From Patescibacteria group bacterium (lineage in GTDB: Bacteria > Patescibacteriota > Microgenomatia > UBA1406 > GWC2-37-13): 64,000 nt of DNA. The notes beneath the pieces were generated by a model. That model did no database searches, was not told the DNA's origin, and was given only the letters and a program-made list of their open reading frames with translations. The stretch lies in contig BPJD01000003.1 in assembly GCA_026004435.1 (NCBI GenBank), forward strand, positions 62,001-126,000. Reading direction: 5' to 3'. Positions 17,864 to 33,011 of this stretch are shown in pieces; the first letter of the stretch is position 1; each line of letters begins with the position of its first letter. A program made the translations under genes and the position numbers.

Positions 17864-19124
17864 ACTTGGCTTGCAAAAATCTTAACAAGGTCTTTTTTTC
17901 ATCCCAAGGCCATTCTTTGCCAAACCTAGCCAGGCTTTTTTCATGACTTTTGCCCGTAGCTAAAATAACATCACCAGGCTGGGAAAGTTCAACAGCAAGT
18001 TTTATAGCTTGTTCCCGATCAGCAATCTTATAATAAATCCCTGCTTTATTTTCTATTTTTTTTATGTCTGCCAACTTAAAGCCATTCTTTACAATACCCT
18101 GCTCTATCTCAGCAAATATCTGATTAATATCTTCGTTTCTAAAATCTTCCTCTGTTAAAATTACAATATCTGCGTTTTTACTTGAGTAATAACCCATATG
18201 AGGTCTTTTGGCAAAGTCCCGCTGACCTGCGCAACCAAAAATATGAATCAGTCTTGAGTTTTTAGCATAATTATTTTTTATATAAGGCAAAACTGTTTTA
18301 AAAGCGTTTTGAGTATGAGCAAAATCAATAATGGCAGTAACCTGTTTGTTCCAGACAACCTCAAGCCTGCCGGCAGGTCTGCTAAAGGTTTTCATAGCTT
18401 CTGCAATCTGATCATCTGATAATCCTAAATGTTTCAGAATGCTATAACCTAGACTAAAATCTTCTTTTAAAAACTCAGGAAGATTATTCAGTCCGTATCT
18501 CTTAAAATCAAATTTGTAATCTGCTTTTGTTTCATCTTTATACCCATAAGTAAAAAACTTTTTGTTGTGACGAAACAAAAAAGACTTTATATAGCTGTAA
18601 TTGCTGTCATCCCTATTAATAAAACAGTGCTGACTGGCTAAAAGAAGTTTAAGCTTTGTGTCTCTGTATTTTTTAAATGTAGAAAAATAATCGCTTTCTT
18701 TATCCTTTGACATAATGTGTTCAGCAGTAATATTAGTTATGCCTGAAGATTGAAAATCTATTCCAATAATTCGGTTTTGATCTATAGCATGGGCAGTAAC
18801 CTCTAGTACTGCATACTCTATTTTCTCTGAAACTGCTTTTGCCAAAAAAAACTGCAGCTGCTTATTTGATGGAGTTGTTGTATGCAGTCCAGTATCATAC
18901 TCCAAATCTCCGATTTTGGCATAAACCGATGATACAATCATTGCCTTTTTGCCTGATTTGACTAAAGCATCATAAATAAAATGAGTTGTAGTTGTTTTGC
19001 CGTCTGTACCAGTAATGCCAATTAGCTTAAGCTTTTTAGACGGATAACCATAATACCAGCAAGCTAATAGGCCAATAACCAAGTGATAAAAATTTTTTGC
19101 CTTTCTTTTCAAAACTCTTAACAT
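17856..19124 (-). CDS. murE: MurE-like UDP-MurNAc-peptide ligase lacking the N-terminal domain
   Basis: A 422-residue Mur ligase with GITGTDGKTTTT (36-47), the HTTTPSN substrate loop (77-83), VLEVTAHAIDQNRI and the C-terminal IIDFAHTQNAF. The canonical MurE starts with a UDP-binding domain of about 90 residues; here only about 30 residues, with a hydrophobic stretch (about 11-25), precede the ATP domain. The amino-acid specificity loop, DNPR in meso-DAP enzymes, reads EDFRNED. The third residue it adds (Lys, DAP, Orn or other) therefore cannot be read from the sequence. It overlaps pgeF by 8 nt. Confidence 0.85.
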   Translation of the reverse strand: MLRVLKRKAKNFYHLVIGLLACWYYGYPSKKLKLIGITGTDGKTTTTHFIYDALVKSGKKAMIVSSVYAKIGDLEYDTGLHTTTPSNKQLQFFLAKAVSEKIEYAVLEVTAHAIDQNRIIGIDFQSSGITNITAEHIMSKDKESDYFSTFKKYRDTKLKLLLASQHCFINRDDSNYSYIKSFLFRHNKKFFTYGYKDETKADYKFDFKRYGLNNLPEFLKEDFSLGYSILKHLGLSDDQIAEAMKTFSRPAGRLEVVWNKQVTAIIDFAHTQNAFKTVLPYIKNNYAKNSRLIHIFGCAGQRDFAKRPHMGYYSSKNADIVILTEEDFRNEDINQIFAEIEQGIVKNGFKLADIKKIENKAGIYYKIADREQAIKLAVELSQPGDVILATGKSHEKSLARFGKEWPWDEKKTLLRFLQAKYG

Positions 19125-29833: not shown

Positions 29834-31462
29834 TTATTCAACTGATGTAAAATATTGTATCAGATTTCTTCTATATCTTTCTATACGAGATAAAACTTTA
29901 GGAATAATTAAAAACTGTTTTATGTCAACAAGCCAAGCTAAGACAACAAAGACAGAGCCAAAAACAAAACAGGTTAAACCAAGCAAAACTAATAAAGTAA
30001 TTAAGTTTATTGTTTCAATAAATAGCCCGTCTACCAGCCTCATGAAATTATAAGCAACAACAGAGCTTAAAAATGTAATTGCATAAATCTTGGCAGTTTC
30101 AATAATAAAATGCGAATCAACAAACCTGAATTTTCTATTTAGATAAAACCCTAAACACAAAGTATTAAGTGTATTTGTGATTGTAAAAGCCAAAGCCAGA
30201 TACCAGACCTGTTTGTTTAAAAACACAACAAAGTAATAACTGATCAAAATAGAAACAACTGTAAACAAACTGTTGACAATAAGCGGAATTTTGGTTTTAA
30301 ATAAAGCAAAAAAAGTTTTATTATAAAGATAAAATAAACTGTGAAAGGGAATTGAGTAAGCAAACATTGAAACAGTATAAGCAGTAGTTACAGTAGCAGA
30401 CCAATCAAACTTTTCACCTCCAAAAAACACTCTTACAATAGGAGTTCTGGCAAAGATCAAGAAAAAGGATACAGGTACAGTAGTAAAGATAACAAGCAAT
30501 GTATTGTTTTTTATAATTTCTGCTATTTGTTTTGTTTTACCTTCCTCGCTTAAAGAAGAGATAAATGGGTAAGCTGCCTGCGAGATTGACTGGCCTATTA
30601 ACGAGACCGGCAGATACTGAAGTCTTTGAGCTAAATAAAAGGCAGTATACGAACCTAAACCCAACAATGTTGACAAAGCAAGCTCAACAGTTGACTCAAG
30701 CTGTTTAACAATGAGATTAACAACCCGAGTTGACGAAAGCAGAATAAAATCTTTAAAAGACCTATCTGGTTTAAAGCTAAACACATACTTAAAATCTGTT
30801 AACTTAATTATGCCAAGCTGAGAAACAGCATACATAAAAGATCCTAAAACAACGCCAAATATCAATGCAGACAGACCTAAACTTCCAGCGAAAATAAGTG
30901 TTATAAGCATAATAGAAAGATTATAAAACAATGGAGCTAAAGCAGTAAGCAAAAACCTTTTTTCAACCTGAGCAAACGCGCTTAGAACAGAACCTATGGT
31001 TAAAAAAGGCACCTGAGTTGCCAAGATTATACGGGTATAATAAACAACAATTCTCTGTTGCTCAGGATCAAAACCAGGAGTCATAAGGCCAACCAAAAAC
31101 TCAGCAAAAACAATGGCTAAAACTACTAAAACCAGCAAAAACAACATAAACAAATTTAAATTTACCGAGATAGATTTATAAAACCTCTCCTGAGACTGTC
31201 TGCGATATCTTAAAACTAAAGGAATTAACGAATAACCTAAAACACCTGAGACAACAGAGTCAAAGAGCATATCAGGCAGTCTGAAACTGGCAAAAAACAG
31301 ATCAAGCTCTTCAACTGTAAAAAAATAGGAAAAAACCCTATACCTAATAAACCCTAAAACTCTGGAAAACCCAAACATTAAAGCAATAATTAATGCTGAT
31401 GAAAGTATGCTTGTCTGCTGGGTAAAAAACAGGTTTTTAAATTTTCTCCACAGTTTAAACAT
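29834..31462 (-). CDS. murJ: Lipid II flippase MurJ
   Basis: A 542-residue MOP-superfamily transporter with about 14 membrane helices. Family marks include SRVLGFIRYRVFSYFF near the N-terminus, LDLFFASFRLPDMLFDSVVSGVLGYSLIPL, and LAQRLQYLPVSLIGQSISQAAYPFIS. MurJ moves lipid II to the outer face of the membrane, where the SEDS proteins and class A PBPs of this window use it. First gene of an operon with the AMP phosphorylase and mltG; divergent from mraZ with a 41-nt gap. Confidence 0.93.
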   Translation of the reverse strand: MFKLWRKFKNLFFTQQTSILSSALIIALMFGFSRVLGFIRYRVFSYFFTVEELDLFFASFRLPDMLFDSVVSGVLGYSLIPLVLRYRRQSQERFYKSISVNLNLFMLFLLVLVVLAIVFAEFLVGLMTPGFDPEQQRIVVYYTRIILATQVPFLTIGSVLSAFAQVEKRFLLTALAPLFYNLSIMLITLIFAGSLGLSALIFGVVLGSFMYAVSQLGIIKLTDFKYVFSFKPDRSFKDFILLSSTRVVNLIVKQLESTVELALSTLLGLGSYTAFYLAQRLQYLPVSLIGQSISQAAYPFISSLSEEGKTKQIAEIIKNNTLLVIFTTVPVSFFLIFARTPIVRVFFGGEKFDWSATVTTAYTVSMFAYSIPFHSLFYLYNKTFFALFKTKIPLIVNSLFTVVSILISYYFVVFLNKQVWYLALAFTITNTLNTLCLGFYLNRKFRFVDSHFIIETAKIYAITFLSSVVAYNFMRLVDGLFIETINLITLLVLLGLTCFVFGSVFVVLAWLVDIKQFLIIPKVLSRIERYRRNLIQYFTSVE

Positions 31463-31465
31463 AAT

Positions 31466-31519
31466 TTGACAACTACCGCAAATTTGGTGTAAAATGGTTA
31501 CATATGGTTTTCTTTGGTG
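31466..31519 (+). promoter_or_regulatory. mraZ promoter with four MraZ-type operator boxes
   Basis: A -35 box TTGACA (31,466-31,471) and a -10 box TAAAAT (31,490-31,495) are 18 nt apart, with the mraZ ATG 8 nt further on. Superimposed are four boxes TGGTG, TGGTT, TGGTT, TGGTG starting at 31,485, 31,495, 31,505 and 31,515, exactly 10 bp apart. Known MraZ operators are TGGGN boxes repeated every 10 bp in front of mraZ, so this looks like an autoregulatory operator with T for G at the fourth base. The last two boxes lie in the coding region. Confidence 0.75.
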
Positions 31520-31902
31520 AATTTCACATCTCTTTAACTACAGGCAACAGAGTTGCTCTACCAAAAAAAATTCGTGAACAACTTGATAACCATACATTTA
31601 TTCTAACAAAGGGTTTTGACTTTTGTTTATCTGGATATAGAACACAGGACTGGGAAAAAAAAGCAAAAGAACTTATGAACAGTTCTTTGCTTGACAAAAC
31701 AGATATTAGGAAAAAAAGAATAATGTTTTCTTCTGCTGTTTATCTGGAGTTTGACAACCAAGGCAGATTTATTCTGCCAAAAAACCTGCTTGATTTTGCA
31801 GGAATTCAAAAAGAAGTTGTAATCATCGGAGTCGGAGACCACTTTGAGATCTGGGCAAAAGAAAACTGGGAAGTTTATCAAAATCAAGATGACAATGAAT
31901 AA
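31504..31902 (+). CDS. mraZ: Transcriptional regulator MraZ
   Basis: A 132-residue protein with two SpoVT/AbrB-like repeats: FFGEFHISLTTGNRVALPKKIRE in the first half and SAVYLEFDNQGRFILPKNLLDFAG in the second, each with the G-R-x-x-L-P core of MraZ. MraZ is a ring-forming DNA-binding protein that represses its own division-gene operon. It heads mraZ-rsmH-ftsL, as in most bacteria, although the rest of the cluster is on the other strand elsewhere. Four putative operator boxes overlap its promoter and first codons. Confidence 0.95.
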   Translation: MVFFGEFHISLTTGNRVALPKKIREQLDNHTFILTKGFDFCLSGYRTQDWEKKAKELMNSSLLDKTDIRKKRIMFSSAVYLEFDNQGRFILPKNLLDFAGIQKEVVIIGVGDHFEIWAKENWEVYQNQDDNE

Positions 31903-32746
31903 ACACACTCCAGTATTATACAATCAAGTGATTGACGAACTGTCAGACACCAACCTAACCAAGATTATAGACGCAACAGCAGGACAAGGAGGTTATCTTA
32001 AAACTCTTTTGGCTGATAAATCAAAAAAAATACTGGCAATTGACATAGACCCACTGCAAATTAAAAGATTAAAGGAAATTTATAAAGAAGAACATAAATC
32101 CGGCAGGATAATTTTTCAACAAGGAAACTTTGCCAATCTAGATAAATTTGCCAAAAAGCACAATTTTTATCCAGCATCAGCAGTTATCTTTGACCTGGGT
32201 TTGTCTTGGGATCAGATGATCTCTTATCATAAAGGGTTTTCATACAAACAGGAGCAAGATGATCTTGATATGAGATTCAACTCCAGATTTAAATACACTG
32301 CAGCGGATTTGCTCAACAACCTAACGGAAGATCAACTGCTTGATGTATTTATGAGTTTTTCTGAAGAACCAAAGTCTTTTGATCTGGTTAAGGAAATAAT
32401 AAGAGTCAGAGCAAAAAAAACAATAAAAAAAGTAGCAGATCTAAACAAGGTTATTGCTAAAATAAGCAAAAAAGACTCAACTTACAGAAGAATTTATCAA
32501 GCATTGAGAATAGCTGTTAATAATGAGTTTGTTAATTTAAAAAAAGGATTGGACTCTGCCTTAAAAATTCTTGATTTAAATGGAAAAATTCTTTGTCTAA
32601 CCTTTAATCCAACAGAAGACAGAATAGTTAAAAGATTTATTAAAAACAACAACTTAGCCTCAAAGACAATAAAAAATAAATCTGCAGAAGCTAACTTTGA
32701 AAAAATTGCAACATTACGAGTTATTGTAAAAACCAATGACAAATAA
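31895..32746 (+). CDS. rsmH: 16S rRNA (cytosine1402-N4)-methyltransferase RsmH
   Basis: A SAM-dependent methyltransferase of 283 residues. The opening NKHTPVLYNQVIDEL matches the HxPVLxxEVxxxL start of RsmH, and DATAGQGGYLKTLL (26-39) is the SAM loop. LDIDPLQI-like AIDIDPLQ, FDLGLSWDQM and the insert with QALRIAVNNEFVNL complete the signature. The ATG at 31,895 overlaps the mraZ stop by 8 nt; an ATG at 31,889 would add only Met-Thr. An upstream start at 31,844 would add a basic stretch not found in the family. Confidence 0.95.
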   Translation: MNKHTPVLYNQVIDELSDTNLTKIIDATAGQGGYLKTLLADKSKKILAIDIDPLQIKRLKEIYKEEHKSGRIIFQQGNFANLDKFAKKHNFYPASAVIFDLGLSWDQMISYHKGFSYKQEQDDLDMRFNSRFKYTAADLLNNLTEDQLLDVFMSFSEEPKSFDLVKEIIRVRAKKTIKKVADLNKVIAKISKKDSTYRRIYQALRIAVNNEFVNLKKGLDSALKILDLNGKILCLTFNPTEDRIVKRFIKNNNLASKTIKNKSAEANFEKIATLRVIVKTNDK

Positions 32747-33011
32747 ACTTTATTTTACAGCCTTAATAGTTTTGGCAGTAATGTTTACAGCAAATATATT
32801 TCTGTATACTAAACTCTTAAGTTTTTCTAACCAAATTAAAACAATAGAAGAAAAAACAATAAAACTCCAGCTAGAAAATAGTCTCTTTGAAAAAAAGGTT
32901 TATAAAAAAAGTTCTTTGAAGGTTATTGAAGAAAAAGCCAAACTTTTAGGATTAGAGGATAAACAAGAACTAGTAATTCTCAGTGATCCAAAAATTGCTC
33001 TGTCCAACTAA
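32736..33011 (+). CDS. ftsL: FtsL-like bitopic division protein
   Basis: A 91-residue protein with a short cytoplasmic start, one membrane helix (about 6-27) and a heptad-rich coiled coil (about 30-72), ending with an AKLLGLEDKQELVILSD segment like that of FtsL/DivIC. These small proteins join FtsQ and FtsW-FtsI in the divisome. FtsL sequences are poorly conserved, so the call rests on topology and on position after rsmH (11-nt overlap), where ftsL normally lies. DivIC is the alternative. Confidence 0.8.
   Translation: MTNKLYFTALIVLAVMFTANIFLYTKLLSFSNQIKTIEEKTIKLQLENSLFEKKVYKKSSLKVIEEKAKLLGLEDKQELVILSDPKIALSN

Follow-up and report, generated by a model that had tools for sequence, protein, structure and literature searches.

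The mraZ gene of this Patescibacteria group bacterium begins within four direct repeats that follow one another at exact steps of 10 bp and extend from the promoter into the first codons (Table 1). The repeats are a real and strongly conserved array, very probably one through which MraZ binds and regulates its own gene. On the evidence of order-wide alignment and codon use, we are highly confident that the array would serve as the autoregulatory operator of MraZ and that autoregulation would act through it. The array lies in a stretch of 64,000 nucleotides, referred to here as the window, and was compared with mraZ loci of the order to which the organism belongs (hereafter the order) and of more distant lineages.

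Layout of the mraZ locus

Between positions 31466 and 31520 the window holds TTGACA, 18 nt, TAAAAT and then the ATG that opens mraZ (132 aa), and the two hexamers with their 18-nt spacer match a promoter at 11 of 12 positions. The TG of the start codon (31504-31506) begins box 3. The preliminary description of this DNA had reported four TGGTK boxes at exact 10-bp spacing; all four are present at the positions it gave, and none appeared in shuffled sequence. Arrays of three TGGTK boxes have a shuffle expectation of 0.00 (100 shuffles of the window), and the two that were observed overlap, forming the single four-box array. The looser pattern TGG-N7-TGG-N7-TGG has five matches in the whole 885-kb genome, with a fourth box at the mraZ site alone, and a search of the rest of the 885-kb genome gave no second four-box array. 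Further TGG triples in the genome were considered as other targets and look like chance; one on the minus strand at 17910-17932, with three TGG at 10-bp spacing and no fourth box, is probably a chance match.

Table 1 Features of the mraZ locus in the window.
Feature	Position	Strand	Remarks
murJ (lipid II flippase)	29834..31462	-	divergent; PF03023 E=7.4e-56
-35 hexamer TTGACA, mraZ promoter	31466..31471	+	1.0-2.0 bits per column in 75 aligned sequences of the order
MraZ box 1 (putative), TGGTG	31485..31489	+	noncoding, between -35 and -10
-10 hexamer TAAAAT	31490..31495	+	last T shared with box 2
MraZ box 2 (putative), TGGTT	31495..31499	+	noncoding
Predicted transcription start, A at -2	31502..31502	+	from -10 spacing; leaderless or 2-nt-leader mRNA
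MraZ box 3 (putative), TGGTT	31505..31509	+	start codon ATG and Val2 codon
MraZ box 4 (putative), TGGTG	31515..31519	+	codons 4-6 (Phe-Gly-Glu)
mraZ, 132 aa	31504..31902	+	PF02381 E=1.4e-27; solved MraZ 1n0e E=2.9e-22; putative ligand of the array
rsmH (mraW), 16S rRNA methyltransferase	31895..32746	+	PF01795 E=7.2e-54; overlaps the mraZ end
Small DivIC/FtsL-like septum protein	32736..33011	+	PF04977 E=1e-4, below the curated cutoff

The encoded protein is a clear member of its family, with a Pfam PF02381 score of 95.9 bits against a cutoff of 23 that is spread over two stretches (two MraZ/AbrB-like halves) and a full-length match to the solved MraZ 1n0e. It is 85% identical to the MraZ of the metagenome-assembled genome KatS3mg090, the closest named relative. 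The gene order mraZ-rsmH, which heads a dcw-type cluster, is present here, and rsmH lies downstream of mraZ in 67 of the 77 loci of the order. Upstream, murJ is divergent in 58/77 of these loci; in the window the murJ and mraZ start codons are 41 bp apart (31463-31503), a gap that holds the mraZ promoter and operator.

Conservation of the array within the order

The pattern TGG-N7-TGG-N6-ATGG-N7-TGGNGA was searched genome-wide in 83 genomes of the order. It occurs in 42 of them, each time once and at the mraZ start, the sole exceptions being three low-complexity matches in one genome (G021), while the reversed control pattern has no match in the 83 genomes. A gapless alignment of 77 distinct mraZ starts of the order (75 for some column and codon counts) shows that most box positions carry 1.3-2 bits, whereas most of the sequence separating the -35 hexamer from box 1 is nearly random, at 0.1-0.4 bits. 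Both noncoding boxes share in this conservation, with 1.3-1.6 bits for the TGG of box 1 at -19 and T in 74/77, G in 73/77 and G in 65/77 at -9 to -7 in box 2. Across the order, [A/T]TGG[T/C]G describes the boxes better than TGGTK.

The array is not uniform among relatives. Some members of the order have a degenerate box 3 (ATGCT, ATGTT), and the GG of this box is missing in 13 of the 77 sequences, those with Leu2 or Phe2. Fewer than three intact boxes remain in 10/75. In genus g6, two loci (L192 and L194) encode an MraZ that begins MVFFVGE, and the one additional codon shifts their fourth TGG off the 10-bp phase; a third locus of the genus (L193) is without the extra codon and has lost box 3 instead.

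Codon choice in boxes 3 and 4

Since the N-terminal residues are themselves conserved, and Phe-Gly-Glu forces the GG and part of the T of box 4, the in-gene boxes could owe their retention solely to the N-terminal sequence MVFFGE, the upstream boxes then being part of the promoter. Codon use makes this very improbable. Within mraZ of the order, 50 of 59 Val2 codons are GTG, the least used codon for Val at 15% (local codon usage predicts 8.4), and 59/59 are GTG or GTT (32.5 expected), with GTA and GTC never used, and Gly5 is GGT or GGG in 73/75 (31.6 expected) at the expense of GGA and GGC; the sequences are related and not independent, so that simulated P values for these counts are too small, and within-gene Gly codons, which carry the same history, served as controls. 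At these controls (Gly 15, 29, 37 and 44) GGA and GGC are freely used. The homologous Gly codon is likewise free of the bias elsewhere, being GGT or GGG in 41/107 sequences outside the order compared with 74/77 inside. Furthermore, promoter elements have no need of a TGG in 10-bp phase with codons. That boxes 3 and 4 arose from coding alone is thus rejected by the tests at Val2 and Gly5 and by the homologous Gly outside the order: the two boxes restrict synonymous codon choice at Val2 and Gly5, and the array as a whole is not forced by coding, as two of its boxes are noncoding and the other two have constrained synonymous sites. Phe3, which lies in none of the boxes, shows an excess of TTT, so that T-richness at the gene start is a lesser and separate bias.

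The preliminary description had proposed an MraZ operator that covers the promoter and runs into the coding region, and had suggested aligning the upstream regions of related mraZ genes as a check. The alignment bears this out in that the boxes are conserved, including the noncoding ones, and the synonymous sites are constrained, which makes such an operator very likely.

Promoter, transcription start and position of the array

Box 1 lies between the -35 and -10 hexamers, box 2 on the -10 hexamer and box 3 at the predicted transcription start. In the order the end of the -10 box is 8 nt from the ATG, and an A at -2 is found in 74/77 sequences. No Shine-Dalgarno-like motif was detected within 18 bases upstream of the start in any of 50 predicted genes of the window (first ATG taken as start). 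From the position of the -35 and -10 hexamers, the conserved A and the lack of such a motif, the mraZ mRNA of the order is predicted to be leaderless, and it is for this reason that the downstream half of the operator would fall within codons 1-6. The array had also been described as a site where a bound ring would block both promoter and start codon. Coverage of the promoter is supported, but a ring bound to DNA does not in itself block a start codon, which is covered here because it coincides with the predicted transcription start of a leaderless mRNA.

A probable leaderless mRNA would also allow a constraint on the RNA itself, in which a given 5' end (AUGGUG...GGUG) is favoured for translation initiation or mRNA stability. 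The absence of Shine-Dalgarno-like motifs fits such a constraint, and the GTG at Val2 could in part reflect a second-codon preference; Val2 occurs in 3/50 genes of the window and GTG in none of these, too few to judge a general preference. Yet boxes 1 and 2 would be untranscribed and have the same motif and phase, and relatives whose start codon lies elsewhere retain the array at the promoter, so that we regard a constraint on the mRNA as very unlikely.

Arrays of TGG with a 10-bp period are found upstream of mraZ well beyond the order, in 43/67 sequences from other orders of the class, 22/30 from other classes and 9/12 from other phyla, with a shuffle expectation below 0.5 in each of these sets. 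What differs is their position. The array reaches the start codon in 65/65 cases in the order, compared with 5/74 outside, where the start is ambiguous for some of the five; elsewhere in the class and in other classes the whole array mostly precedes the ATG. An array running into the coding region is accordingly not the CPR-wide variant that the preliminary description had supposed. In family f108, the TGG arrays of two loci from outside the order (L140, L149) cross possible start codons, the true start being ambiguous. Both in the order and in other orders of the class, the first TGG most commonly follows TTGACA after 12 nt, which ties the array to the promoter.

That a regulator other than MraZ binds the array appears very improbable as well. 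MraZ is the putative ligand, and the murJ start, 41 bp away and divergent in most of the order, would place the site within reach of a regulator of murJ. TGG arrays nevertheless track mraZ across phyla, whereas murJ is not universally upstream even within the order, and we know of no other factor for a TGG array motif. With MraZ as the ligand, it may co-regulate the lipid II flippase gene murJ.

The base before TGG and the recognition loop of MraZ

The change from TGGG to TGGT had been taken as a CPR trait. This interpretation does not stand, as TGGT is the commonest box type in the set from other phyla and is present in other classes too. The real sequence shift of the order concerns the base before TGG, which is A or T in 226/234 boxes of the order and G in 70/78 boxes from the phylum's other classes and 24/28 from other phyla. 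The first loop of most MraZ proteins reads KGR; in nearly all of the order its basic residue is gone (PGR, GGR, SGR, QGR, GNR), and the Arg that follows the basic position is conserved (Arg16 here, which we take to be aligned with Arg15 of E. coli MraZ). At sequence level, all 75 of the proteins lacking a basic residue at position 14 are without majority GTGG boxes, and majority GTGG accompanies 50/63 of those that have one. When phylogeny is controlled for, the covariation of residue and base comes to three supported independent pairs on the tree and is not significant, and the family-level p of 0.017 was obtained with a cut-off picked afterwards. Loss of the basic residue going together with the shift from GTGG to (A/T)TGG is therefore suggestive. 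For the ATG start codon to act as an operator core, an A ahead of TGG must be tolerated, and the two changes would fit together in this respect.

Comparison with known MraZ operators and proposed mechanism

Like an MraZ operator, the array consists of at least three (here four) direct repeats with a TGG/GTG core and a 10-bp period at the mraZ promoter; the canonical GTGG/TGGG sequence, a lineage-dependent feature and not a strict requirement, is absent. The E. coli operator, as Eraso et al. reportedly described it in 2014, comprises TGGGN repeats with 5-nt spacers at Pmra. It shares with the present array the TGG-core direct repeats, the 10-bp period and the location at the mraZ promoter, as well as a conserved Arg in the first loop of MraZ, but the boxes here are [A/T]TGG[T/C]G and span the start codon and codons 2-6, the leader being absent by prediction. 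In Mollicutes, the mycoplasma operator (AAAGTGKN3)3 (Fisunov et al. 2016, cited in PMC5282649 and PMC8475190) is similar in its 10-bp period, in the A-rich tract ahead of a TG core and in being formed by promoter repeats upstream of mraZ-mraW; there G precedes TG, whereas here A or T precedes TGG and the boxes reach into codons. The MraZ site of Burkholderia cenocepacia has four repeats of 7 nt, separated by 3 nt, that overlie the start site (PMC7761207) and thus resembles the present array in number, period and overlap with the (here predicted) transcription start. Its repeats, however, lie downstream of the -10 box, in the promoter region and outside the ORF, while box 1 here is upstream of the -10 box. 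A literature search for MraZ boxes in CPR or Patescibacteria found no paper.

Under the proposed mechanism, a ring-shaped MraZ oligomer would bind the four boxes, which recur once per helical turn on the same face of the DNA. It would cover the first 5-6 codons as well as the -10 box and the transcription start, thereby repressing transcription of the mraZ-rsmH-ftsL-like operon to which its own gene belongs. The promoter would position the operator, and the leaderless mRNA would put boxes 3 and 4 into the ORF, fixing the codons of Val2 and Gly5. As the roles of MraZ differ between distant organisms (PMC7761207), the sign of regulation is a matter of inference. Repression is likelier than activation given that the array lies over the -10 box and start site and that loss of mraZ in M. 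genitalium derepresses the operon, raising mraW, MG_223 and ftsZ (PMC8475190).

Perhaps, though we put this forward only tentatively, regulator gene, promoter and operator have merged in this order into a single unit of 60 bp. The start codon would then be part of the operator, its ATG giving the TG of box 3, and an MraZ without the basic residue of KGR would read (A/T)TGG instead of GTGG, letting ATG serve as a core. The code for repressor binding would reside in synonymous sites of the repressor gene itself, and the ring may control murJ too.

Significance

MraZ is among the most widespread bacterial regulators. Patescibacteria are mostly uncultured, and the control of division genes in them has been little studied. 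The array is a new variant of the known MraZ operator and not a new kind of system. As a conserved operator that overlaps codons, it would provide direct sequence evidence of active MraZ autoregulation in Patescibacteria, and the naturally occurring replacement of GTGG by (A/T)TGG, accompanied by an altered recognition loop, offers a testable specificity switch. The codon constraint at Val2 and Gly5 shows a compact genome stacking regulation on coding.
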